A DNA stretch of 64,000 nucleotides from Sandaracinus amylolyticus (lineage in GTDB: Bacteria > Myxococcota_A > Polyangia > Polyangiales > Sandaracinaceae): the NCBI RefSeq assembly GCF_000737325.1, contig NZ_CP011125.1, forward strand, positions 9,362,001 through 9,426,000, given 5' to 3'. Below, piece after piece: positions 1,698 through 43,352 of the stretch (its first letter is position 1; each line of letters opens with the position of its first letter). A program made the translations under genes and the position numbers. The notes under the pieces were generated by a model, which searched no databases, was not told where the DNA came from, and was given only the letters and a program-made list of their open reading frames with translations.

Positions 1698-2195
1698 GTG
1701 CACACGCTCTTCGCTCGTGCGTGCGGCCTCGCGGCCGCGCTGCTCGTCCTCGTGATCACGCCGCGGGCGCGCGCCGAGATCGCGCGACCGCACCTCGAAC
1801 CGAGCCCACACCTCGCGCTCGCGCCGCTCGACCCGACCCCGATCGTCGCGACCGCGGTGATCGGCGGGGCGCTGCTGCTCGGCGGCTACGCGACGACGCT
1901 CGTCGCGACGTGGGACGCGTACGACGACGACTGCCCGCTCGCCTCGCGGCACCCCGGCTGCGAAGGCCCCGCACCGGGCGCGCTCGGCTGGTCGCTGCTC
2001 CCGATCATCGGCCCGTGGGCGATGCTCTCCGAGCCCGGCGTCGAGCCCGCGCTCGCGATCGGCATGGGCGTGATGCAGCTCGCGGGCGCCGCGACGCTCG
2101 CGATCGGACTGCCGTTCTCGATCACCCGACGCACGCACGTCGCCGCAGTCGCGGACGGCACAGCCGCGCGCCTCGTCGTGCGCGGCACGTTCTGA
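1698..2195 (+). CDS. Small exported or inner-membrane protein of unknown function
   Basis: A 165-residue protein starting at a GTG. The N-terminus looks like a signal peptide (hydrophobic AAALLVLVI core, then an ARA cleavage-like site at about 24-26). Two further hydrophobic stretches follow: IVATAVIGGALLLGGY near residue 50, and the region around 120-140. Between them is a short loop with two cysteines (DDDCPL and PGCEG) that could form a disulfide outside the cytoplasm. I do not recognise a family. It stands alone between the regulator and a repeat-rich gap. Confidence 0.65.
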   Translation: MHTLFARACGLAAALLVLVITPRARAEIARPHLEPSPHLALAPLDPTPIVATAVIGGALLLGGYATTLVATWDAYDDDCPLASRHPGCEGPAPGALGWSLLPIIGPWAMLSEPGVEPALAIGMGVMQLAGAATLAIGLPFSITRRTHVAAVADGTAARLVVRGTF

Positions 2196-2717
2196 TCCCT
2201 CGTGCGCCGACTCATCGAGCGAACCACAGAGCGCCGCAAAGCGCCGCAGGGCGGAGAAGGCCAATCGACCGACATGCGACATACGCGCAGCGCGCGCCCT
2301 CTGCCGCTCTCTGCTCTGCGGTGAATCGGGGCGAGGCCGAAGGCGAGCCCGAACGAACAGGGCGAGGCCGAAAGGCGAGCCCGAGCCCGGTTCGTGCGAT
2401 CCCGCTCCGCGGGACCGCGCGAACCGCCACCCCACCCAAAGAGAGCGCGCGTTCCCCCATGCGTGCCGACGCCTGACCAGCAGGGCGCGTGGCACCGCGT
2501 CCGAGCGATTCCGCAGCGCCCTCCCAAAGGCACGCGGCTCGTGTCCGGTCCTCGCGTCGCGCGCGCGAAGGCGCGCGCCGCGAGGACGACCCCGCGTCCC
2601 GACGTCTCACCGGCTCCCGAGCACGAAGGCGCCAGGACTAGCGAGGACGCGGTGCCACGCGCCCCCGCCGAAGCCTCACAGTCCGCCCACTCCGATGAGC
2701 GCCGAAGAGCCGAAGCC
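2196..2717. repeat. Gene-free gap with two kinds of short direct repeats
   Basis: No credible gene is seen here. Near 2328-2384 a 24-25 bp unit (gggcgaggccgaaggcgagc and a few more bases) occurs twice, 32 bp apart. At 2667-2693 there is a near copy (one mismatch) of the sequence at 2709-2735, which itself overlaps the last codons and stop of the DUF1552 gene. The gap thus holds a small duplication of that gene's 3' end. It may also act as the transcription end for the minus-strand operon. Confidence 0.55.
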
Positions 2718-4145
2718 TCACAATCCGCCCACTCCCCCGTGCTGAAGATCCGAGTCCCCCGCGAACCCGAACGAGTCCACATCGACTCCGAACATCCGAA
2801 GGATCGACGTATACAGATCGCCAGTCGTCCGATCCGGCCGAGCGAGGTGCCGGCCCGGCGTCAGCGCACCACCAGCGCGCCCCGCGAGCACGACCGGCAG
2901 GTCTTGCGTCGAGTGCGCGCCACCGTTGCCGAACTCCGAGATCCACAGCACCACGCTGTTGTCGAGCAGCGTGCTCCCGTCGGGCTCGATCACCGACTTC
3001 ATGCGCTCGAGCAGATACGACACCTGCGTCGCGTAGAACGTGAATCCCGCGATCAGATTGGCATTCTCGTTCGGCGCACCGCCGGTGTCGCCGTGCACCT
3101 GAGCGTGCCAGTCCGCGATCGCGCTGCCCGGCAGCGCGCGCGCGCCCGCGCCGATCAGCTCGCTCGGCATCGGGGCCTGGAGGAACTCGAACGACGGGCC
3201 GTGGTAGTCGGCGTCGTGGATCGACGCGACGCGCGTCACGTTGCACGTCAATGCCGTGACCATCACGTCGATCTGCGCGCGCCAGTGCAGATCGGAGCGC
3301 CCCGCGCTCGGATATCCCGGCGGGAGCGAGAGCGTCGGATCGTCGCAGGTGATCGCCGGCGCGCCGAGCGACGCCTCGAGCTCCGCGAGCCGCTCCGCGT
3401 GCGCCTCGAGCCGCGCGCGATCCGCCGCGCTCACCCGACGCGCGAGCGCCGAGTACGAGCCGCCCAGCGCGTCGAGCACACGGCCGCGCTGTCCGCGCAG
3501 TCGCTCGCGCAGCGTCGTCGGCGCGCCGCTCGAGCCCGCGAGGAATTCGTCGAACACCCGCACCGGATCGCCGATCAGCCGCGCCTCGGCGCGCGCGCCG
3601 TTCGGCTGCGCGCTGTTCTCCGGCGCGACCCGGTAGTACATGCGGTTCTCGCCCGCGTTCGTGCCGTTCACCGCGAGGTTGAGCGGCAGCGGCGAGCCGA
3701 TGCGATCCGCGAGGTGGTGATCGATCGAGGGCCCGACGCACAGCGTCGCCTGCGCGACCTCGCTGCGGGATCCCTCGGGCAAGAGCCGCCCGTCGCTGGT
3801 CGCCGACGACGTGCAGAGGTGCGCGTTGAGCAGCGTGTGCCCCGGCGCGTTGTGCCCGTTCGAGAGGTGATAGCGCGGCATCAAGTTGTCGATGCCCGAG
3901 ACCACGACGAGATCGTCGCGATGCGGCGCGAGCGGCATCAGGAGCTCGGACAGCTCGAGCGCCTCGCCCGCGCGCACCGGCGGCGTCCAGCGCGGCAGCA
4001 GCGTGCCCTGCCCGGTCGTGATCACGACGAAGCGCGTCGGCATCGTCCCCGCGCGCGCGGTCCGCGGCATCAGCGACTCGAGCAGCGGGAGCGCGAGCGC
4101 GACGCCCGCACCGCGCAGCACCTGACGTCGGGAGAAGCGATTCAC
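2718..4145 (-). CDS. DUF1552 family exported protein
   Basis: 475 residues. A GTG start is chosen because it overlaps the upstream gene's TGA as GTGA and has AGGAGG seven bases before it. The N-terminus NRFSRRQVLRGAGVALALPL is a twin-arginine signal, so the protein is probably exported folded. The body matches DUF1552: RFVVITTGQGTLLPRW, then SGIDN, and the C-terminal VVLWISEFGNGGAHS. The DUF1501/DUF1552 families are distantly like alkaline-phosphatase/sulfatase-fold proteins, but their reaction is unknown. The family is nearly always encoded beside DUF1592/DUF1588 proteins, as here. Function can only be given as part of an exported complex with the haem-motif partner upstream. Confidence 0.88.
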   Translation of the reverse strand: MNRFSRRQVLRGAGVALALPLLESLMPRTARAGTMPTRFVVITTGQGTLLPRWTPPVRAGEALELSELLMPLAPHRDDLVVVSGIDNLMPRYHLSNGHNAPGHTLLNAHLCTSSATSDGRLLPEGSRSEVAQATLCVGPSIDHHLADRIGSPLPLNLAVNGTNAGENRMYYRVAPENSAQPNGARAEARLIGDPVRVFDEFLAGSSGAPTTLRERLRGQRGRVLDALGGSYSALARRVSAADRARLEAHAERLAELEASLGAPAITCDDPTLSLPPGYPSAGRSDLHWRAQIDVMVTALTCNVTRVASIHDADYHGPSFEFLQAPMPSELIGAGARALPGSAIADWHAQVHGDTGGAPNENANLIAGFTFYATQVSYLLERMKSVIEPDGSTLLDNSVVLWISEFGNGGAHSTQDLPVVLAGRAGGALTPGRHLARPDRTTGDLYTSILRMFGVDVDSFGFAGDSDLQHGGVGGL

Positions 4146-5770
4146 GGCGAGACCTCCTGCGCGCGGCGCTCGACGAACGAGGGATGCGTCGCGAGCGACT
4201 CGAAGAGCACCGGCATCGCGCGACCGCTGCCGACGAACGCGTCGCCGAGATCGCCGACGCTGCACGTGAGATCCGCGCGCACCTCGCGGCCGAGCGCGTA
4301 CTCGGTCCACTGCTGCGCGAAGCAGCGCGACGCGTCGTCGCTCGCGACGAGCAGCGCGAAGAGCTCGCTCGCGCCGTCGAAGGTGCCGCTCGCGTCGCCG
4401 CCCGCCGCGATCTCGCCGACGTCGTCGATCGCGCGCCCACCGAGCTCGCTGCGGAAGCGACCGAGCCCGTCGTACGCCTCGAGCCCGAAGCCCACGGGAT
4501 CGAGGAGCGTATGGCAGCCCATGCAGCGCGAGCTCGCGATGCGCGCCTCGTAGCGCTCGCGCGCGGTCGCGGTCGCGGGCAGCGAAGGCTCGCTCTCCTG
4601 CGCGTCGACGGGCGGCGGCGGCATGTTCGTGCAGAGGAGGCGCGTGCGGATCAGCTTGCCGCGCAGGATCGGCGACGACTGCTCGCCGTGCGACGCAGCG
4701 GCGAGCACCAGCGGATGCGTGAGCACACCGACGCGGGTGCCCGGCATCGTCACGCGTCGGAAGTCGCCGGGCCCGCTGCTCTCGCGCGGAAGTCCGTAGA
4801 ATTCCTCGAGCACCGCGTCGACGTGGGCGACGTCGGAGGTGAGCAGCGTCGCGAATCCGTCGTCGGCGTCCCACGCCTCGTCGACGAGGCGGCGCAGCTC
4901 TTCGTCGAGCGCGGCGCGCACCTCGGCGGAGTGGCTGGTGGGGAGCGTCGCGATGCCGAGCCACTCGCGCACGAAGCGCTGGAACGTGGCGCGGGCGCGG
5001 GGGTCGGCGGTGATGCGCGCGCCTTCTTCGCGCATGCCCTCGGGCGTCGTGAGCAGACCCGACTCCGCGGCCTCGCGGAGCACGTCGTCGGGCGGCGCGC
5101 CGAGGTACGTGTACGCGAGGCGCTGCGCGCGCTCGTGCGCGTCGAGCGACCACGTCTCGGTGTCGGCGCGCGACTCGACGACGTAGAGGAAGCGCGGCTC
5201 CTGGAGCAGCGCGATGAGCGCGACCGCGAGCGCTTCGCGCGGCGGAAGACCATCGCCGCTCGCCGCGACCGCGAGCGCGACGAGGCGCTCGACCTCCTCG
5301 CTCTCCGGCGGGCGTCGATACGCGACCGTGGCCCACGGCGCGATCGTGGCGCGCGCGCACTCGGCGATCGCGATGCCCGCGCAGTCGGGCAGCGTGGGCT
5401 CGACCGCGATCGCGGTCTCTTCGGCCGCCTCGAGCAGCGCGCGCGCTTCGGTCTCGCCCACCCGATGCGCGGCCGCGAACGTCGAGTACGCGTAGCCGGT
5501 CGACGGCGCGGGCAGGAGATCGATCACCTCGGGCGCGGCGTCGCCGAACATCGCGCGCAGCGTCTCCTGGTGCTCGCGCGGCGTGAGGCGCCGCATCGGC
5601 ACCTCGGCCTCGCGCGGCGCGTCCTCGCACGCAGGGGGACGTGTGGGCCCGCCTGGATCGCGCATCTGTCCGCGTGGACCCGCGGCCCCGTCGCCGAGGC
5701 TCCCGATGCACCCGCTCAGCAGCGCGATCGCTGGAATCGAGAGCGCTGGATTCGGGCGGAAGAGCGTCAT
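4142..5770 (-). CDS. DUF1592/DUF1588/DUF1585 exported protein with one haem motif
   Basis: 542 residues beginning with a lipoprotein-like signal (IPAIALLSGCIG). In order: a DUF1587-like part (LTPREHQETLRAMFGD), DUF1595 (about 120-200), DUF1592 (about 200-310), DUF1588 (RVGVLTHPLVLAAASHGEQ, then a CMGCH haem c-type motif followed by LLDPVGFGLEAYD) and DUF1585 at the C-terminus (CSVGDLGDAF with SGRAMPVLFESLATHPSF). This is the complete planctomycete/myxobacterial arrangement. The single CxxCH suggests one covalent haem outside the cytoplasm. Its stop overlaps the DUF1552 start by four bases, so the two are made together. The substrate is unknown; a role in extracellular redox or polymer breakdown is often suggested but unproven. 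Confidence 0.88.
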   Translation of the reverse strand: MTLFRPNPALSIPAIALLSGCIGSLGDGAAGPRGQMRDPGGPTRPPACEDAPREAEVPMRRLTPREHQETLRAMFGDAAPEVIDLLPAPSTGYAYSTFAAAHRVGETEARALLEAAEETAIAVEPTLPDCAGIAIAECARATIAPWATVAYRRPPESEEVERLVALAVAASGDGLPPREALAVALIALLQEPRFLYVVESRADTETWSLDAHERAQRLAYTYLGAPPDDVLREAAESGLLTTPEGMREEGARITADPRARATFQRFVREWLGIATLPTSHSAEVRAALDEELRRLVDEAWDADDGFATLLTSDVAHVDAVLEEFYGLPRESSGPGDFRRVTMPGTRVGVLTHPLVLAAASHGEQSSPILRGKLIRTRLLCTNMPPPPVDAQESEPSLPATATARERYEARIASSRCMGCHTLLDPVGFGLEAYDGLGRFRSELGGRAIDDVGEIAAGGDASGTFDGASELFALLVASDDASRCFAQQWTEYALGREVRADLTCSVGDLGDAFVGSGRAMPVLFESLATHPSFVERRAQEVSP

Positions 5771-6685: not shown

Positions 6686-8143
6686 TCAGAGCCCGATGAT
6701 GCTCACCCCACCCGGCACGCGCACCGGGTGCGAGATCATCCACGACCACGCGCCGATGATCACCATCGGCGCGTGGTCCGGCCGCACCCAGCGACGCGCG
6801 ACCGTCGCGACCTCCTCCGCCGTGACGCGCTCGATGCGCGCGCTCGTCGCGAGGATCGCCTCGGGCGCATCACCCACCATGAACGCGACCGCGAGCGTGT
6901 ACGCGGAGCCCCACGCCGAGTCGAACCTCCCGGCGCGCCGCGCGAGCTCCACGTTGCGCGCGAGCGAGAGCTCTTCGGCCGTGATGCGGCTCGCGTCGGA
7001 GAGGCGCTCGAGCTCGGCGACGACGTTCGACGCGGCATCGCCGACCGTCGCCACGGGCACGACCATCTGGATCTCGAGCAGCGTGTGGTCGACCTCGTCG
7101 ATCACACGCGCGGCGACGCCGTACGTGTCGCCGCGCTGCTCGCGGAAGCGCAGGTTGATCGCCGCGCTGAACATCCCGCCCGCGAGGCGCGCGAGCACGC
7201 AGAACGCCGCGTAGTCCTCGTGGTCGCGCGGTGGACCGCGCTCGACGAGGCGCAGCACGGCGCGCGGATCGTCGTCGGTCGGATAGATGCGGAGGCGCGG
7301 GTCCGGCGTCGGGAACGCGGGCGCCTGCAGCGCCGCGCGGGGCGGCGTGCTCGGCGGCGCGACGAGCGCGTCCCATCGCGCGCGGATGCGAGACTCGAGA
7401 TCGGCGGGATCGAAGTCACCGACGACGATCAGCGCGGTCGACTCCGGCCGCAGGAATTGCGCGACGCGCGCGCGGACGCGCGCGAGCGTCAGCGGCTCGA
7501 CGCGCGCCGCGAGGATGCGCGACGCGGCCACGCGCGCATCGCCCTCGCCGTAGAGGCGCGTGAAGAGCTCCTCCGACGCGGGCGGGTGCGAGCGCCGCCG
7601 CCGCTGACCGGTCTCGAAGCGCGCGTGCTCGAGCAGCGCCGCGCGCGAGCGCTCGATCTCGGCGTCGTCGAAGCCGCGACCCTCGACGAGCTGCGCGAAG
7701 CGCTCGAGCACACGATCGATCTCCGTCGGGACCACGCCCGACGACACGAAGAGCCCGCGTCCCGTCGCGCGCGCCGCGACGACGTGATCGTCGCGCGAGA
7801 CCTCGCCGAGCGCGCGCGGCAGCCCCGCGCCGAGCGCACGCTCGACGAGCGCATCGATCGCCGCGGTCGCATCGTCGGTGCGTCCGTGCGCGCCGCGCCC
7901 GACGAGGATCGTGTACACGACCGGCGCGTCGTGACGCGGCACGAGCTGCACGGTGATGCCCGACGCGAGCGTGATCGTGCGGATCTCGGGCAGCGTGGGG
8001 ACCTGCGCGGCCCACGCGCTGGTGTCGTCCGGCGCGGCGAGCGCGGGCGTCGCCGAGATCGGCGACACCGGAGGAGGCAGCGGCGCGCGCGAGGTGCCGC
8101 AGCCGGCGAGCGCGAGGGCGACGAGCAGCGCGAGACGCGTCAC
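6686..8143 (-). CDS. M16-family lipoprotein lacking the zinc motif
   Basis: 485 residues from a GTG that overlaps the upstream peptidase gene's TGA as GTGA. The start is a lipoprotein signal (LLVALALAGC, Cys at about residue 14). The body has M16 folds: GITVQLVPRHDAPVVYTILV in the N-terminal part and TALIVVGDFDPADLESRI as the usual lobe junction. It lacks the HxxEH zinc motif that its partner carries. In the MPP/PqqF-like two-subunit M16 peptidases one subunit is catalytic and the other helps bind substrate; here this would be the non-catalytic one. Whether it is held at the inner or outer membrane cannot be told. Confidence 0.85.
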   Translation of the reverse strand: MTRLALLVALALAGCGTSRAPLPPPVSPISATPALAAPDDTSAWAAQVPTLPEIRTITLASGITVQLVPRHDAPVVYTILVGRGAHGRTDDATAAIDALVERALGAGLPRALGEVSRDDHVVAARATGRGLFVSSGVVPTEIDRVLERFAQLVEGRGFDDAEIERSRAALLEHARFETGQRRRRSHPPASEELFTRLYGEGDARVAASRILAARVEPLTLARVRARVAQFLRPESTALIVVGDFDPADLESRIRARWDALVAPPSTPPRAALQAPAFPTPDPRLRIYPTDDDPRAVLRLVERGPPRDHEDYAAFCVLARLAGGMFSAAINLRFREQRGDTYGVAARVIDEVDHTLLEIQMVVPVATVGDAASNVVAELERLSDASRITAEELSLARNVELARRAGRFDSAWGSAYTLAVAFMVGDAPEAILATSARIERVTAEEVATVARRWVRPDHAPMVIIGAWSWMISHPVRVPGGVSIIGL

Positions 8144-9570
8144 GGCCGCACCTCGCCGTCGACGAGCGTCAGCTCGCTGATGATGCGCCCTTCGATCGGC
8201 GCCTCGCGGCGGCTCGCGATCGACACGACGAGCCGGCGTCCCGCCGGCAACCACTCGCGCGCAGCGTCGCGCGTGGCGTCGGCCGTCACCGCGCGATAGC
8301 GCTCGAGGTTCGCGCCGACGTCGAAGTACCCGCCGGGAAACGCGGGCATCCGCTGTCCGAGGCGCTGCGCGCGCTGGAGCGAGTCGTCGAGCCGCATGAT
8401 CTCGCCCTCGACGAAGCTCGTGCGCCAGCGATCGAGCACCCGCGCGTCCATCGGCGTCTCGCGCATGGTCGCGAGCTCCGCGTCGAGCGCCTCGAGCGAC
8501 GCGAGCGTGCCCTGGCCGCGCGGCACCGTGACGACGACCTCGAACGTCGAGCACAACGCGCCGCTGTCCTGCCGCACGTCGACCGAGAGCGCTCCGCCGG
8601 CGACACGGATGCGCTCCTCGAGCCGGTGCTCGAGCTCGCTCGCGACGAAGTCGAGCGCGGCGTCCGAGGCCGTGCCCCACGGAGGCGAGGGCCAGATCAC
8701 GTAGAGCAGATCGTCGGCCCGCTGCGCCTCGGCGAGCACGCGGCGCTCGCCGTCGAAGCGCACCGGCGGCGGCACCTCGATCGGCGGCGGCGTCGCGGCG
8801 CCCGCGGGACGCAGCGGCGCGAAATAGCGCTCGATCCATGCCCGCGTCGGGTCGGGATCGAACCCGCCGGACACGACGAGCGTGATGCGCGCCGGGACGT
8901 AGTGGCGCTGGAAGAACGAGTGCACGTGCGTCGCGCGGATCGCCTGCACGTCGTCTCGCCGCTCGAGCGCGCGCGAGTACGGATGGCCCGCCGGATAGAG
9001 CAGGCCGAGCACGAGATCCCAGACCGCTTCGCGGCCCCAGGTCCGCAGCTCGCGCTCGCGATCGACGACTCGACGCTGCTGCTCGACCGCCGCGTCGTCG
9101 ACGGCGTCCATGCCGTGCGCGAGCCGCTCGGCCTCGAGCCACAGCACGCGCTCGAGCGCGCCGCGCGGCACGACCTCGTAGTAGCGCGTGAAGTCGTCGC
9201 TGGTCTCGCCGTTGTGCTCGATGGCGCCCCAAGCATCGAGCCGCGACGACACGTCGCCCGGCGCCGCCGCGGTGCCGCGGAAGAGCAGGTGCTCCGTCAG
9301 GTGCGCGAGCCCGGTCCAGCCGTCGGGCTGATCGCGTCGCCCGACGTCGACCGAGACGAGCACCGTCACGGTGTCGCGCCCCGGCAGCGGATCGAGCACG
9401 ACGTGCAGCCCGTTCGACAGCTCGTAGCGAACGGTCGAGGGCAGCGATTGCGCGCGCACGACGGCGTGAGCGCCGGCGATCGCGACGAACGCGAACAGCG
9501 CGAGCGCGAGATCACCAAAGCGGACGCGCGTGCGTGACGCGCGCGCTGGAACGAGCACGGTGGGCCCCAT
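8140..9570 (-). CDS. M16 zinc peptidase, catalytic subunit, exported
   Basis: 476 residues. The start at 9570 gives a signal peptide (about 1-41, ending in VVRAQS); the frame stays open upstream but that part lacks coding character. The inverted zinc motif is HLTEH at residues 90-94, with the downstream glutamate supplied from the VEQQRRVVDRERE segment (about 162-174). ELSNGLHVVLDP and the late SGGFDPDPTRAW match M16 lobe borders. It is translationally coupled to the motif-less M16 lipoprotein that follows. The likely role is degradation or processing of peptides in the periplasm as a heterodimer. Confidence 0.9.
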   Translation of the reverse strand: MGPTVLVPARASRTRVRFGDLALALFAFVAIAGAHAVVRAQSLPSTVRYELSNGLHVVLDPLPGRDTVTVLVSVDVGRRDQPDGWTGLAHLTEHLLFRGTAAAPGDVSSRLDAWGAIEHNGETSDDFTRYYEVVPRGALERVLWLEAERLAHGMDAVDDAAVEQQRRVVDRERELRTWGREAVWDLVLGLLYPAGHPYSRALERRDDVQAIRATHVHSFFQRHYVPARITLVVSGGFDPDPTRAWIERYFAPLRPAGAATPPPIEVPPPVRFDGERRVLAEAQRADDLLYVIWPSPPWGTASDAALDFVASELEHRLEERIRVAGGALSVDVRQDSGALCSTFEVVVTVPRGQGTLASLEALDAELATMRETPMDARVLDRWRTSFVEGEIMRLDDSLQRAQRLGQRMPAFPGGYFDVGANLERYRAVTADATRDAAREWLPAGRRLVVSIASRREAPIEGRIISELTLVDGEVRP

Positions 9571-36189: not shown

Positions 36190-37203
36190 GTGTCGTATTC
36201 GCAGAGAGCCGAACGACTCTGGAATTCGCAGCACGACGGCGATGCGCGCCAGTCTAGGGACGATGTCTCGCCGCATCCCGTCACGTTCCTGGTCGGGGCC
36301 GAGCGCTCGGGCACCACGCTCACGCGCTTGATGCTCGACGGTCACCCCGAGCTCGCGTTCCGCTACGAATTCGAGCTCGCCGTCGATCTCGTGCCGCCCG
36401 GCGAGGGATGGCCCGATCTCGACGTCTATTACGAATATCTGCGCACGTATCGATTCGTCGATCCGCCGCCGCACATCGATCGTTCGCTCGACTATCCGTC
36501 GCTCGTGCGCTCGTTCCTCGAGCAGAAGCGGCGCGCGGATCGGAAGCCGCGGGTGGGCGCGGTCGTGCATCGCAATTTCGATCGACTGCTGCGCATCTGG
36601 CCGGACGCGCGCTTCGTGCACATCGTGCGAGATCCGCGCGACGTCGCGCGCTCGTGCGTCGGGATGGGGTGGGCCGGTCACGCGTGGAGCGGCGTCGCGC
36701 CCTGGATCGAGGCCGAGCAGCTCTGGGAGCGGGTGCGCGCGTCGCTTCCTCGCCAGCGATGGATCACCGTGCGCTACGAGGATCTGGTCCACGATCCGAA
36801 GCGCGAGCTCGGGCGCATCTGTCGGCTCGTGGAGATCGACTTCGACGACGCGATGCTCGAGTACCCGAGCCGCTCGACCTACCGCGCGCCGAGCCCGTCG
36901 TTCACCGAGCAGTGGCGGAAGAAGCTCACGCCGCGCGATGTGCAGCTCGTCGAGTCACGGGTGCACGACATGCTCGCGCCGCGCGGGTACGCCCTCAGCG
37001 GGCTGCCGCGCATCGAGCCCTCGCCGCTCGAGCGCGCCGCGCTTCGCGCGCGGTGTCGAGCGGGGCGCGCACGCCACGCGGCGCGATCGCTCGGCGTGCG
37101 CCTGTGGGTCGAGCGCGCGGTCGCGCATCGTGGCGGGCCGCGGGCGTGGCGCGAGCACGTGCAGCGCCGGGTGGACGCCGCGATCAACGCGCAGCTCGCG
37201 TGA
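36190..37203 (+). CDS. Sulfotransferase family protein
   Basis: 337 residues. The start is a GTG after GGAGGA; this ribosome site forms a palindrome with the preceding cctcc, so it may be partly hidden in the mRNA. The 5'-phosphosulfate loop is VGAERSGTTLTRLML (about 35-49) and the 3'-phosphate motif is HIVRDPRDVARS. WITVRYEDLVHDP matches the third conserved block of PAPS-dependent sulfotransferases. It moves sulfate from PAPS to an unknown acceptor such as a sugar, lipid or tyrosine. It is not linked to an obvious polysaccharide locus. Confidence 0.88.
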   Translation: MSYSQRAERLWNSQHDGDARQSRDDVSPHPVTFLVGAERSGTTLTRLMLDGHPELAFRYEFELAVDLVPPGEGWPDLDVYYEYLRTYRFVDPPPHIDRSLDYPSLVRSFLEQKRRADRKPRVGAVVHRNFDRLLRIWPDARFVHIVRDPRDVARSCVGMGWAGHAWSGVAPWIEAEQLWERVRASLPRQRWITVRYEDLVHDPKRELGRICRLVEIDFDDAMLEYPSRSTYRAPSPSFTEQWRKKLTPRDVQLVESRVHDMLAPRGYALSGLPRIEPSPLERAALRARCRAGRARHAARSLGVRLWVERAVAHRGGPRAWREHVQRRVDAAINAQLA

Positions 37204-37251
37204 GAACGCTCCCGCACCGGGGAGCCTCGATCCTCGGTACCATCGTGGCCG

Positions 37252-39057
37252 ATGGGCGACGACGAGGCTCCCGATCTCACGGAGGCCGGCGGTCACGACC
37301 TGCGTCTGTCGGCCGCCGAGATCTCCGATCCTCAATTCCAAGCGCGCTACGAGCTCGACTCGCTGCTCGGCTCGGGCGGCATGGGCGAGGTGTCGCTGGT
37401 GCGCGATCGGCGCCTCCAGCGCGAGATCGCGCTCAAGGTGCTGCGCGCCTCCGCGGCCGCCGATCCCGAGCTGCGCAAGCGCTTCCAGCGCGAGGCGCTC
37501 CTCCAGGCGCGCCTCGATCACCCGGCGATCGTTCCGGTCTACGACTACGAGAGCACCGACGATCGCCTGTACTTCACGATGAAGCGCGTCCGCGGTCGCA
37601 CGCTGCGCGACGTGATCGACGCGATCGCGGAGGGCGACGAGGCGACGCGCGCCGAGTGGGGGCGCGGGCGCTTGCTCTCCGCGTTCGTGCAGGTGTGCCG
37701 CGCGATCGACTACGCGCACGCCCACGGCGTGCTGCACCGCGACCTGAAGCCGCAGAACGTGATGCTCGGCGGGTTCGGCGAGGTGCACGTGATCGACTGG
37801 GGGATCGCGAAGCACCTCGACCGCGCGAGCAGCGACGCCGACGGAACGCTCGCGACGATCGAGGGCGAGTCGCTCGGCACGATCGGCTACATGGCGCCCG
37901 AGCAGATCGTCGGCGACGACGTGACGCCCGCGACCGACGTGTTCTCGCTCGGCGCGATCGTCTTCGAGGTGCTCGGCGGAGGGCCGCTGGTGCCACCGGG
38001 ATCGCGGAGCGAGCGCGCGACCGCGACGTTGAAGGGCGTCGAGCTCCGGGTGCGCGAGCGCGCGCGCGAGCTCGAGATGCCGCCCGAGCTCGAGGCCGTC
38101 GTGCTGCGCGCGACGATGCGCGAGCCGCGCGCTCGATACGGCAGCGCGCGCGAGCTGGCCGAGGCGGTGCAGCGCTACCTGGACGGCGATCGCGATGCCG
38201 AGCGACGGCGCGAGCTCGCCGACGAGTGCGTGCGCAAGGCCGAGCGCATGCTGGCGATCCAGGACGAGCGCGCACGCGCGATCGTGCGGCCCGCGGCGGT
38301 GAAGGAGCTGGCGCGCGCGCTGGCGCTCGACCCCTCGCACGACGTCGCGAGCGCGCTGCTCGGCCGCTCACTGCTCGAGCCGCCCGCCGAGGTGCCCGCG
38401 GAGGCACGCGCGGTGCTCGAGCGCACGCAGGAGGAGTCGGAGCGCGAGGCCGCGCGCACCGGCACGTTCCGCTATCTGCTCTGGCTCTCGTTCGCGCCGT
38501 GGTACGCGGCGATGGGCGTGCGCGACTGGGTGACCTTCACGATCATCGTCGCGCTCACCGCCGCGAGCGCGCTGCTGATGGGCCTGGTGTGGAAGGGCAA
38601 ATTGCCCACGAAAGCGGGGCTTCTCGCGTTCGTGACGAGCACCACCACGCTCGCGATGTTCTCGCGCGCGTTCAGCCCGCTCGTGATCGTCGCGTCGCTC
38701 GCGGCGACGAACGTGATGTTCTTCTCGGGCTACGTCGCGCCGCGCGAGCGACGCGCGATCGTCCTCTTCACGTGCCTCGCGATCATGGCGCCCTACGCGC
38801 TCGAGATGATCGGCGCGATGCCCGCGTCGTTCACCATCACCGACGAGACGATCGTGATCGTGCCCTGGCTGCTCGGGTACCACCCCACGGGCACGCTCGT
38901 GTTCATGATCGCGATGACGCTCACCGCGACCGCGGTGCCCGCGCTCGCCGCAGGTCGCGTGCGCGACGCGCTGACGAAGGCGCAGGAGCGGCTGGCGATC
39001 ACCGCGTGGCAGCTCGGCGAGCTGGTGCCGAAGCGGAAGGACGAGCGTGGCGAGTGA
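37252..39057 (+). CDS. Ser/Thr protein kinase with C-terminal membrane domain
   Basis: 601 residues. The kinase domain (about 33-320) has a Gly-rich loop LGSGGMGEV, Lys62 in ALKVLRA, the catalytic HRDLKPQN (162-169), a DWG in place of DFG at 182-184 and YMAPEQ. A helical linker rich in Arg and Glu follows to about 405. Then come roughly five hydrophobic segments (about 405-570; WLSFAPWYAAM, FTIIVALTAASALLMG, LVIVASLAATNVMF and others), and a basic tail. In most Pkn-type kinases an outer sensor follows one membrane helix; here the membrane block is large. DWG is common in bacterial Pkn kinases and does not argue against activity. Confidence 0.92.
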   Translation: MGDDEAPDLTEAGGHDLRLSAAEISDPQFQARYELDSLLGSGGMGEVSLVRDRRLQREIALKVLRASAAADPELRKRFQREALLQARLDHPAIVPVYDYESTDDRLYFTMKRVRGRTLRDVIDAIAEGDEATRAEWGRGRLLSAFVQVCRAIDYAHAHGVLHRDLKPQNVMLGGFGEVHVIDWGIAKHLDRASSDADGTLATIEGESLGTIGYMAPEQIVGDDVTPATDVFSLGAIVFEVLGGGPLVPPGSRSERATATLKGVELRVRERARELEMPPELEAVVLRATMREPRARYGSARELAEAVQRYLDGDRDAERRRELADECVRKAERMLAIQDERARAIVRPAAVKELARALALDPSHDVASALLGRSLLEPPAEVPAEARAVLERTQEESEREAARTGTFRYLLWLSFAPWYAAMGVRDWVTFTIIVALTAASALLMGLVWKGKLPTKAGLLAFVTSTTTLAMFSRAFSPLVIVASLAATNVMFFSGYVAPRERRAIVLFTCLAIMAPYALEMIGAMPASFTITDETIVIVPWLLGYHPTGTLVFMIAMTLTATAVPALAAGRVRDALTKAQERLAITAWQLGELVPKRKDERGE

Positions 39058-39101
39058 TGCGCGCGGTCGACCGAGCTCCGACCGGGCGATAGGATCAGAG
39101 C

Positions 39102-40391
39102 GTGCTGTCCGAGCTGCGGGTCGCCGGGTTCAAGAGCTACGGGGCCGAGCAGCGTCTCGTGCTCGCCCCGCTCACCGTCCTCATCGGCGCGAACGCGTCG
39201 GGCAAGAGCAACCTCATCGAGGCGATGCAGCTCCTCGCCTGGCTCGCACGCTCGCACCGGCTCGGCGACCTCGGCCACGCTCTTCGCGAGAAGGAGCTTC
39301 TCGTGCGGGGCCGCGTGCAGGATCTCGCCGCGGAACGTGACGTGACGCTCGGATGCACCGTCGACGATCTCGAGCTCGAGCTCGTGCTGCGGCTCGGCGC
39401 CGGTGCGGCGCGCGTCGTCGAAGAGGAGCTTCGCGCGAGTGAGTCGTCCTCGAAGCTGCCGTACTACCGGGTGGAGCGCGCCGCACCGGAGCACGGCAGC
39501 GAGCTCGTGGTCGCCTACAACAACTTCGCGAAGGGCCGCAACAAGCCGCAGATCACGTGCGTCGATCAGCAGGCCGTGTTCACGCAGCTCCTCACGCCGG
39601 CGCGCTTCGATGCGACGCACGTGAGCTCACAGGCGAAGATCCCGGCTGCGTGCGAGAAGGTCTCCAGGGCGCTGGGGGGGATGGTGTTCCTCGATCCGCA
39701 GCCGCGCGCGATGCGCGAGTACAGCTATCTGGACGAGACGACGCTCTACCCCAATGGCTCGAACGTGTCTGCGGTTCTCGCGGACCTTTGTCTCGCGCAA
39801 GGTCGGGCTGACGAAGTGCTCGAGTTCGTTCGCGCTCTTCCCGAGCAGGACATCCGCCTCGTCGAGTTCCTGCAGGGGCCGCGGAACGACGTGATGGTCG
39901 TGCTCGTGGAGAGCTTCGGCGGCGCCGAGCGGCGCGTCGATGCGACGCTGCTCTCGGATGGAACGCTCCGGGTGCTGGCGGTCGCCGCGGCGGTCCTCTC
40001 TGTCGCGGCAGGCTCCGTCGTGGTGATCGAGGAGATCGACAACGGAGTGCACCCCAGCAGAGCCGGCGTGTTGATGGATGCGCTCCACCGAGCGGCGAGC
40101 GCTCGAGGAGTCCAGCTCCTGGTGACGACGCACAACCCGGCGCTGCTCGACGCCGTACCTGCGGGTGCGATCGGCGACACGGTCGCGTGCTACCGCGATC
40201 CCGAGTCGGGCGAGAGCCGATTGCAGCGCCTCTCCGAGTTGGACGATTTCGTCGCGCTGACCGCGCGTGGTCCGCTCGGGATGCTCGCCACGAGCGGCGC
40301 GCTCGATCGGTTCCTGAAGCACCGGCGCACGGCGGAAGAGCGCGAGAAGCAGGGGCAGCAGGTCCTACAGCTCTTCCGTTCGTCGCGATGA
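39102..40391 (+). CDS. SMC/ABC-like AAA ATPase (AAA_21 type)
   Basis: 429 residues from a GTG with AGGA upstream. It begins LRVAGFKSYG, as in SMC, RecF and OLD-type ATPases. Walker A is GANASGKSN (29-37). Walker B is VVVIEEIDNG with E310, E311 and D313, followed by a TTHNP switch region near 345. The middle lacks coiled coil or zinc hook, unlike true SMC proteins. No nuclease domain is fused; the coupled gene encodes a PIN-like protein instead. Such stand-alone ATPases with a small nuclease partner are frequent in anti-phage systems. No known system with exactly this pairing comes to mind. Confidence 0.85.
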   Translation: MLSELRVAGFKSYGAEQRLVLAPLTVLIGANASGKSNLIEAMQLLAWLARSHRLGDLGHALREKELLVRGRVQDLAAERDVTLGCTVDDLELELVLRLGAGAARVVEEELRASESSSKLPYYRVERAAPEHGSELVVAYNNFAKGRNKPQITCVDQQAVFTQLLTPARFDATHVSSQAKIPAACEKVSRALGGMVFLDPQPRAMREYSYLDETTLYPNGSNVSAVLADLCLAQGRADEVLEFVRALPEQDIRLVEFLQGPRNDVMVVLVESFGGAERRVDATLLSDGTLRVLAVAAAVLSVAAGSVVVIEEIDNGVHPSRAGVLMDALHRAASARGVQLLVTTHNPALLDAVPAGAIGDTVACYRDPESGESRLQRLSELDDFVALTARGPLGMLATSGALDRFLKHRRTAEEREKQGQQVLQLFRSSR

Positions 40392-40840
40392 TCGTCTGCA
40401 TCGTCGACACGTCGGTCTTCTGTGAGCTCCTGAACGTCCCAGGGCTCGCCTCGCACGACAGCTTGGTCGTGGACGAATTCGAAGCGAAGCAGAGCGAAGG
40501 GCATCAGTTCGTGCTCCCGCTCGCGGCGATCATCGAGACGGGGAATCACATCGCGCACGTACCGGACGGTGCGCAGCGTCGCTCGGCTGCAGAGCGGTTC
40601 GCGAAGGTCGTGATCGATTCCATCGACGGCAAGACGCCGTTCGCGCCAGCGTCGCAGATGCCGAGCATCGATGACGTCCGAGTCTGGATCGCGCACTTCG
40701 TCGACGACGCCACGCGCGGAATGGGCATCGCGGATCGCAGCATCATCAGCCTGTGGGAGACGCTCCGGCGACAGCACCCGAAAGGCCGCGTCTACATCTG
40801 GTCGCTCGACGAGCACCTCTCGTCGTACGACACGGAGTAG
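40388..40840 (+). CDS. PIN-domain-like protein coupled to the ATPase
   Basis: 150 residues; its ATG overlaps the ATPase stop as ATGA. It begins MIVCIVDTSVFCELLNV with Asp7 in the usual first PIN strand. Further acids sit at Glu50 (LAAIIETGNH), Asp117 (IADRSIISLW) and Asp141 (WSLDEHLSSYD). This matches the four-acid metal site of VapC-like ribonucleases. No antitoxin-like gene is adjacent, so the ATPase rather than a DNA-binding antitoxin may hold it in check. Target RNA or DNA unknown. Confidence 0.7.
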   Translation: MIVCIVDTSVFCELLNVPGLASHDSLVVDEFEAKQSEGHQFVLPLAAIIETGNHIAHVPDGAQRRSAAERFAKVVIDSIDGKTPFAPASQMPSIDDVRVWIAHFVDDATRGMGIADRSIISLWETLRRQHPKGRVYIWSLDEHLSSYDTE

Positions 40841-40847
40841 CTCCGGC

Positions 40848-42176
40848 TCACTCGTCGTCGACGTCGCTCGCCTTGATGGCGTAGCGCTTCATCAGGCGCT
40901 GCACGTAGCGGCGGTTGGTCCCGATCGATCGCGCGGCGCCGCTGACGCTGCCGCCGCTCTTCGTGAGCGCGCGCTCGAGGTACGCGCGCGTGAAGAGCTC
41001 TTCCATCTTCTCCTGCGCCTCGGTCAGGGGCAGATCGAGGATCGCGGGATCGAAGGGCGACGACGCGGGCGCGCTGCTCGGGTAGATGGGCTTGGGCGCC
41101 CCGAGGCTCTCGACCGCGCCGAGCAACGCGGCGCGCTCCACCGCGTTCCGCAGCTCGCGCACGTTGCCCGGCCACGCCCGCGATGCGAGCCGCGCGACGA
41201 ACTCCGGCGGCGGCTGCGCGCCGCGCCCGAGCCGCTGCCAGAAGTGCGCGATCAGCATCGGCACGTCCTCCCCGCGCGCGCGCAGCGGAGGCAGGTGCAC
41301 CGGGACCACCGCGAGGCGGAAGTAGAGATCCTCGCGGAAGCGCCCGCGGTTCACCTCGGCCGCGAGCTCGCGGTGCGTCGCCGCGACCACGCGCACGTCC
41401 ACGCTGCGCCAGCGGTTCTCGCCGACGCGCTGCACCTGTCGGCTCTCGAGCGCGCGCAGCAGCTTCGGCTGCAGATCGAGCGGCAGCTCCCCGATCTCGT
41501 CGAGGAAGAGCGTCCCTCCGTGCGCAGCCTCGAACACGCCGAGGCGATCGCGCACCGCGCCCGAGAACGCGCCGCGCACGTGCCCGAAGAGCTCGCTCTC
41601 GACGAGGCTCGGCGCGACCGAGCCGCAGTCGAACGTGACGAACGGCTGATCCGCGCGCGGCGACGCCGCGTGGATCGCCTCGGCCACGAGCTCCTTGCCG
41701 GTGCCGGTCTCGCCCTGGATCAGCACCGTCGCGTCGCTCGGCGAGACGCGCTCGAGCAGCGCGAACACGCGCCGCATCTCGACGCTGGTGCCGAGCAGCG
41801 CGCCGAAGCGCGTCTTCTCCGAGAGCGCGATGTGCACCGGCTGCTCGATCGGGATCGCGCGGATCGCGGTGTTGCCGACCTGCACGAGCGAGCCCGGCGC
41901 GAGGATCGCGGAGAGGATGCGCACCCCCTGCACGAACGTGCCGTTGGTCGATCCGAGGTCGTCGACGCGCACCTCGTGCTGGCGCAGCGTCACCTGGAAG
42001 TGGCGGCGCGACACCGAGGGGTCGCTCAGCACGAGATCGTTGTCGCGCGCCGCGCCGACCCGCAGCACGCCGCTCTCGGCGACCGCTTCCTTGCCGAGGT
42101 CGGCGCCGCTCACCACCGAGAGGCGCAGGCCGGGGAGCTCGAGCTTCGCCGCGAGCCGTTCGACGATCTGAGTCAC
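40848..42176 (-). CDS. FHA-domain sigma54-dependent activator
   Basis: 442 residues from a GTG. The N-terminal FHA domain (about 35-108) has [21 protein letters not shown] and DLGSTNGTF, the phosphothreonine-binding residues. The AAA+ domain has Walker A GETGTGKE (155-162) and FLDEIGE (224-230). The sigma54 contact loop reads GAFSGA (202-207) instead of GAFTGA. A Fis-type helix-turn-helix ends the protein ([18 protein letters not shown]). It is activated by binding phosphorylated partners made by Ser/Thr kinases, such as the nearby membrane kinase, but that link is only positional. Confidence 0.93.
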
Positions 42177-42221
42177 TGCGCGCTCAGGGTATCAGCGCCG
42201 CGCGCTACGATGGGAGCGTCG

Positions 42222-43019
42222 ATGCAGCGCGCGATCGTGGTGTGTCTGGTGATCGCGGCGGGGTGCGCATCCGCGCCTCCGCCGACCGCCGCGGTGCCGG
42301 CGCGCGGCGGCCCCGCGTCGACGCTGATCGAGCGATGGGTCGAGCTCGCGCGCGGCGAGGACGAGCTCGTCGTGGACCTCGCGAGCGAGTGGGTCGCGGC
42401 GAACGTGCGCGACCCGCGCATCGCCTCGCTCGACCCGAGCGGCACCGACGTCGCGAGCGGTGCGCCGCGCATCGCGCTCGTCACCGCGCAGATCGACCTC
42501 GTCGCGAGCGTGCTCGCGCTCGGGCTCGCCCATGCGCACGACGAGACTCTCGTCGCGCTGGGGCGCCGGCTCGAGGCCCTCGATCCGATCCACGACGACG
42601 CCGGCTTCGTCACGGTGCTCGACGCGCTGGGCGAGGTCGCGGACGACCCGCGCTCGCATGCGGCGGTCGAGCGTCTGCCCGAGACGTGGCCCGAGGGCTC
42701 GTCGCGCCGTCCTTCGCGCGACGAGCTGGGGCGCGCGGCGGTGTGGCTCGCGCTGCGGTGGCTGGGACTGTGGGACGACCCACGGATGCGCGGCGTCGAT
42801 CGCAGCGGGGTGTGTATCAGCGGCAATCCTTGGGCGTTCTACGTCTGGACGCCGGCGTCGACGGTCGCGTTCGCGATCGGGATGGGCGCCGAGCCGCGCG
42901 TGGTGCTCGATCTCGTCCACGACCGCCTGGTCGCGATGATCGCGCTGGCGCGATCGCTCCCGGCGCCCCCGGACGACGGTGTCACGGCCGATGTCCCCGT
43001 CGAGGTGTCCCTCCATTGA
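42222..43019 (+). CDS. Putative lipoprotein of unknown function
   Basis: 265 residues from the ATG at 42222. Lipobox VIAAGC (Cys15), then an Ala/Pro-rich linker and a helical body with no motif I recognise (ARGEDELVVDLASEWVA, VLALGLAHAHDETLVALG). It is divergent from the FHA-sigma54 activator with 45 bases between starts, so that activator may control it. The frame is open far upstream over the activator gene, which is shadow sequence. The stop lies inside the loop of an inverted repeat (43008-43050). Confidence 0.7.
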   Translation: MQRAIVVCLVIAAGCASAPPPTAAVPARGGPASTLIERWVELARGEDELVVDLASEWVAANVRDPRIASLDPSGTDVASGAPRIALVTAQIDLVASVLALGLAHAHDETLVALGRRLEALDPIHDDAGFVTVLDALGEVADDPRSHAAVERLPETWPEGSSRRPSRDELGRAAVWLALRWLGLWDDPRMRGVDRSGVCISGNPWAFYVWTPASTVAFAIGMGAEPRVVLDLVHDRLVAMIALARSLPAPPDDGVTADVPVEVSLH

Positions 43020-43063
43020 GTTTTTTTCGCCGAGAGTCCCAATGGAGGGACCGTCGATTGGGA
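43008..43063. promoter_or_regulatory. Competing inverted repeats at the lipoprotein stop
   Basis: Arm tccctccattg (43008-43018) is the exact complement of caatggaggga (43040-43050), with a T7 run (43021-43027) in the loop. The overlapping tcccaat (43037-43043) can instead pair with attggga (43057-43063). The two stems cannot form together, as in attenuators. The part from 43064 up to the tandem array shows nothing else. Confidence 0.45.
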
Positions 43064-43079
43064 CATCGCACCGCGAAGA

Positions 43080-43352
43080 GCCCTTCTCTCGCTCGGCGAA
43101 CGGGCTCTGCGGCGGGGAGTGCCGTTCGCTCGCCCGGCGACAGCCCCTTCCGCGTGGAGAAGCCGCTGGAACGCTCGGCGAACGCCTGCTCTCCGCCGGG
43201 GATCCCGTTCGCACGCCCGGCGAACGCCTTCTCCCGGCGCACGATCCCTTCGCGCGCCCGGCGAACGCTCTCTCCCGCCGGAGATCCCGTTCGCACGCCC
43301 GGCGAACGCCTTCTGCGGTCGCGGCGCCCGCTCGCTCGCGCGGCGCACGGCG
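43080..43352. repeat. Seven-copy tandem array, 41-42 bp period
   Basis: The core cgcccggcgaacg or a near copy has its cgg at 43094, 43135, 43176, 43218, 43259, 43300 and, weaker, 43341: spacings of 41 or 42. In the best copies cgttcg pairs with cgaacg around a cacgcccgg loop. Copies differ more from each other than in the array at 31350-31660, but the period and hairpin core are alike. No gene is seen between 43020 and 43426. Confidence 0.75.

Follow-up and report, generated by a model that had tools for sequence, protein, structure and literature searches.

An ATPase-PIN gene pair of the candidate anti-phage system PDC-M07 in Sandaracinus amylolyticus and its probable guard-type role

Two overlapping genes of Sandaracinus amylolyticus, situated in the analysed stretch of 64,000 nucleotides (hereafter the window) of its 10.3 Mb genome, encode an ABC/OLD-type ATPase and a small PIN-domain protein. 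Judged by the matches of both sequences, this pair is an intact member of PDC-M07, a candidate anti-phage system that has already been listed in PADLOC and is widespread; the pair is one genomic instance of it. We consider it likely that the pair acts as a guard-type (toxin-guard) defence module, probably PARIS- or PrrC-like, stand-alone and horizontally spread. This reading is drawn by analogy, mainly from the parallel embedding of PARIS in BREX and of PrrC in type I restriction-modification (R-M) operons.

Gene pair, predicted folds and family assignment

The coordinates of the pair, of its surroundings and of the related sites discussed below are collected in Table 1.

Table 1. Features of the ATPase-PIN locus, of the corresponding site in a congener (G002) and of a second ATPase locus in the same genome; coordinates are those of the window unless another locus is named
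Feature	Position	Strand	Basis or remark
Ser/Thr kinase gene	37252-39057	same strand as pair	44 bp upstream of ATPase gene
Segment absent from congener G002	39046..40847	.	blastn of window 37001-43000
ABC/OLD-type ATPase gene (PDC-M07A family), GTG start, 429 aa	39102..40391	+	PADLOC, Pfam, motifs, model
ATGA stop/start overlap coupling both genes	40388..40391	+	sequence; identical 4-bp overlap at 50/79 related loci
PIN-domain protein gene (PDC-M07B family), ATG start, 150 aa	40388..40840	+	PADLOC, model, conserved acids
FHA/sigma-54 activator gene	40848-42176	opposite strand to pair	next gene downstream
Lipoxygenase and ALO/FAD oxidase genes in congener	L146 (G002:C1:8884500-8892500), 1820-5289	minus	occupy the pair's site
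Second PDC-M07A-like ATPase, 231 bits, same genome	L025 (G000:C1:2084000-2100000), about 7000-8968	minus	

The original prediction, made from the sequence alone, had described an ATPase frame overlapped through ATGA by a frame of 150 residues; its coordinates were right, the ATGA is present and the ATPase is intact. All motifs named for the ATPase were found as described, namely Walker A GANASGKS (K35), Walker B VVVIEEIDN (E310, E311, D313) and TTHNP (H344), together with a signature-like LLSDGT (S285-G287). Across 40 relatives, residues K35, E310, E311, N314, S285, G287 and H344 do not vary, and D313 hardly does. As for the four acids proposed for the PIN protein, D7, E50 and D141 were correctly placed, whereas the third is D116, position 117 being occupied by R117. 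All four acids, thus corrected, are invariant among 63 relatives, and D7, E50 and D116 also stay unchanged in 13 sequences of greater divergence. The weaker GC bias of the pair, initially noticed by eye, was borne out by counting: GC content is 68.5% in the ATPase gene and 63.8% in the PIN gene, versus 72.4 +/- 2.8% in window genes (36 genes longer than 400 bp).

Both proteins matched the PADLOC models of PDC-M07 over nearly their full length, the ATPase with 568 bits against PDLC04393 (PDC-M07A; 1-427 of 435) and the PIN protein with 170 bits against PDLC04395 (PDC-M07B; residues 2-149), and no difference in content was found; the window copy does differ in lying outside any other defence operon. 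Sequence relatives of the ATPase in PADLOC include HEC-01A, the runner-up family with 137 bits, and AriA with 104 bits; Pfam AAA_21 was matched with 104 bits. The statement that no known system has exactly such a PIN partner is incorrect, since PADLOC already lists the pair. It also conflicts with a survey of BREX from 2026, which reports OLD-ABC ATPases with PIN endoRNases (PMC12839542). The PDC series goes back to a preprint on 'guilt-by-embedding' by Payne et al. 2024 (cited in PMC12988326), and the citing paper describes the validation of most PDCs as pending. In the literature searched we found neither a mention of PDC-M07 by name nor a published anti-phage test of the ATPase-PIN pair or of PDC-M07. 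PIN nucleases with other partners have been validated in the phage defence systems DS-3 and DS-5 (PMC13092281).

The AlphaFold2 model of the small protein, calculated with 63 relatives as input, had a mean pLDDT of 94.6. Its best matches in the PDB were all PIN proteins, with VapC20 at Z 13.8 and rmsd 2.3 over 125 residues, so that the predicted structure agrees with the PIN domain originally proposed. The curated Pfam PIN model remained below the cut-off for this protein (PIN_4, 13.4 bits vs 21.9) and its relatives scored at most 18 bits; the assignment is thus carried by the fold and not by a sequence model.

For the ATPase, the model (pLDDT 92.8) reached Z 17-20 against Rad50 and SMC heads and against the PtuA proteins of Septu and retrons; the rows of VIA-align were mostly Rad50/SMC heads, and the absence of other families there is uninformative. 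This predicted fold, and the two-gene sensor-effector layout shared with Septu and retron PtuAB, would also suit a system of the Septu kind, in which the ATPase recognises phage DNA and the PIN protein cuts phage DNA or RNA directly, leaving the host spared. We regard such a function as quite unlikely: the PIN structures closest to our model are ribonuclease toxins, and the position of the pair's relatives beside restriction enzymes parallels that of the tRNA-cutting PARIS and PrrC. As to Septu itself, its effector PtuB is an HNH nuclease, whereas the window encodes a PIN protein; the ATPase identity is ~15% in the structural alignment, and the Septu PtuA model gave 33 bits vs a cut-off of 500.

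Conservation, spread and embedding in defence operons

A profile scan of ~85,000 genomes revealed at least 402 relatives of the PIN protein. The profile was built from a tighter sequence set, the alignment of the 13 divergent sequences being too loose. The best 80 of the at least 402 loci were kept, and one of them starts at a contig end, which left 79 testable loci. The ATPase gene is located directly upstream of the PIN gene at every one of these 79 loci, and also on one viral contig, which confirms the pair as a conserved unit; the gene overlap is exactly 4 bp at 50 loci. Furthermore, ATPase and PIN distances covary, with a Mantel r of 0.88 as compared to 0.15 for the best of 500 permutations.

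The pair is present in many phyla, archaea included. In the tree of joined proteins the window pair groups with Myxococcota and Acidobacteriota rows (SH-aLRT 98) and has a long branch. Within the phylum of the window's organism, the family of the PIN protein was found in 14 of 282 genomes; a single-sequence search of 37 further genomes from the order detected the protein once, and the two congeners yielded no detection. No match occurred in phage records, and the scan of viral contigs yielded no relative with a single sequence and one with the profile, which suggests that phage carriage is rare in the collections searched. Copies of the pair were found on mobilizable and conjugative plasmids, one of them adjoining a RelE/ParE-annotated gene. 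The copy on a Photobacterium plasmid had no DNA match in E. coli genomes.

At 19 of the 79 loci the pair is inserted in another defence operon, BREX in 13 cases and type I R-M in six; these counts rest on the best 80 of at least 402 loci, i.e. on a non-random sample. The typical order of the BREX copies is BrxA-BrxB-BrxC-pair-PglX-PglZ-BrxL, with BrxB not always present, and the type I R-M copies adjoin HsdR. On two plasmids, from Vibrio and Photobacterium, the order is hsdM-hsdS-pair-hsdR with short overlaps. A sample of 118 neighbouring proteins, encoded at most 3.5 kb away from the pair, contained matches to PglX (7), BrxC (5) and type I methyltransferases (2); the comparison of proximal with distal defence genes provides a loose control, the distal genes of BREX loci being BREX as well. 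Housekeeping partners, whose predominance would by the original prediction have refuted a defence role, are not the main company of the ATPase: BREX and type I R-M genes often lie within 3.5 kb of it.

The plasmid-borne copies, including the one beside the RelE/ParE-annotated gene, bring forward an ordinary toxin-antitoxin or addiction pair as another explanation, in which a VapC-like PIN toxin and an ATPase antitoxin would serve plasmid or island maintenance with no phage sensing. The overlapping operon of two genes, the acidic active site and the predicted PIN fold, closest to VapC toxins, would be consistent with it. We nevertheless hold this explanation to be unlikely. The upstream partner is an ATPase of about 430 aa with fully conserved catalytic motifs, unlike the small DNA-binding VapB, and no VapB-like antitoxin of that type adjoins the PIN gene, which is flanked by the ATPase gene upstream and by the sigma-54 activator gene downstream. 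Sequence identity to VapC is ~15%. In addition, the nesting in BREX and type I R-M operons fits restriction-linked defence.

The locus in Sandaracinus amylolyticus

In the window, the neighbours of the pair are sulfotransferase, Ser/Thr kinase and FHA/sigma-54 activator genes; the pair stands alone, with no defence island among them. PglZ had no match in the window's genome, and the sole match to HsdR is located more than 1 Mb from the pair. Given the lack of a local defence island and of PglZ, and the distance of HsdR, guarding of restriction is not evident in this host.

Comparison with the congener G002 by blastn showed that the identity of 92-93% stops at 39045 and restarts at 40848. G002 keeps the flanking kinase (94%) and activator (96%) genes; between them it carries 3.5 kb with lipoxygenase and ALO/FAD oxidase genes, versus 1.8 kb with the pair in the window. 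The low GC of the pair and the different cargo between the same flanks fit a transfer into a variable spot. The window lacks tRNA genes, and a sigma-70-like promoter was looked for around the pair and not found, hence there is neither a clear integration site nor promoter evidence.

Close spacing to the kinase gene on the same strand might indicate a regulatory or housekeeping pair of the host, tied for example to this kinase. We find this very improbable: the congener has retained the kinase without the pair at this site, the distribution of the pair over the order and the phylum is patchy, and elsewhere its neighbours are unrelated, often being BREX or R-M genes. The upstream kinase was also considered as a defence gene by itself and rejected; it scores on PD-T4-6 models, yet many related kinases exist in the genome and in relatives. 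It should be added that positions 43088-43349 of the window hold a tandem array that repeats about every 41/82 bp, with 72-74% matches, and overlaps the end of the frame 42192-43214.

Proposed guard role, related systems and effector exchange

Under the guard function which we favour, oligomers of the ATPase would bind the PIN protein and hold it inactive. The trigger would be a product of the phage, for which an anti-restriction or DNA-mimic protein is a plausible candidate; alternatively the ATPase might sense unusual DNA in an ATP-dependent manner. Upon triggering, the ATPase would change and the PIN RNase would be freed or assembled; host tRNA or rRNA would then be cut and translation stopped, and the infected cell would die or stall before phage release. 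We infer RNA as the substrate of the PIN protein from its predicted fold. The earlier proposal that the ATPase senses an intruder and releases the PIN activity appears reasonable in view of the analogous PARIS and PrrC.

PARIS is similar in that an ABC ATPase is followed by a small nuclease gene, and the window ATPase does match AriA. The two differ in the effector, which is a Toprim protein (AriB) in PARIS and has a predicted PIN fold in the window, and AriA is not the best family for our ATPase (104 bits vs 568 bits for PDC-M07A). In Salmonella, PARIS shares its location with type I BREX (PMC11341690), and AriA holds and then releases AriB (PMC12409363). PrrC of EcoprrI resembles the pair as an ATPase-linked ribonuclease in a type I R-M operon, the pair's relatives being placed between hsdS and hsdR. 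However, PrrC combines ATPase and anticodon nuclease of the HEPN class in one protein (PMC12409363), whereas the window has two genes and a PIN protein. PrrC lies within the type IC R-M operon of EcoprrI (PMC3874165). The R-M enzyme linked to it keeps it silent, and an anti-restriction factor of the phage activates it (PMC2610378); its release occurs upon infection with phage T4 (PMC3874165, PMC2610378).

The 2026 BREX survey describes OLD-ABC ATPases with HNH, PD-(D/E)XK and PIN nucleases replacing Toprim (PMC12839542). Its modules with PIN share with the pair an OLD-type ABC ATPase and a PIN RNase, and they are found in BREX, where relatives of the pair lie between BrxC and PglX; the likeness is one of description and not locus by locus, and the window copy differs in its location outside BREX.

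The location of the pair inside BREX and type I R-M operons of other genomes suggests cell killing when those defences are blocked, and its recurrence at the BrxC-PglX and HsdS-HsdR junctions offers a testable idea, namely that restriction is watched and the cell killed upon its block by a phage. More tentatively, and with some doubt on our side, the pair may sense restriction inhibition as such, embedded copies guarding BREX and type I R-M, and stand-alone ones, the window copy among them, either guarding in trans or recognising anti-restriction proteins themselves. If this were true, PIN would be a third, independently recruited effector class at the guard position, beside Toprim and HEPN. 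The guard role, if confirmed, would point to PARIS-like guards with exchangeable nucleases.

Some observations bear on such an exchange. ATPases with PDC-M07A as the best model also occur with a different partner, one in G015 (L040) and one elsewhere in the window's genome (L025, Table 1). The gene after the L040 ATPase has weak similarity to HEC-01B and that after the L025 ATPase to DUF4276; the L025 partner is thus of another kind, perhaps Toprim-like, and L040 contains a similar pair. With these other partners at L025 and L040, the ATPase group appears able to swap effectors.

A further locus, L029 (G009:C365), belongs to a host of the same taxonomic family as the window's organism. At about 2900-4908 on the minus strand it contains a PDC-M07A ATPase followed by a truncated-looking PIN start, VVELIDTSVLLNLLG, and then by an ATPase-like frame; this is possibly a decayed pair with another module in its place.
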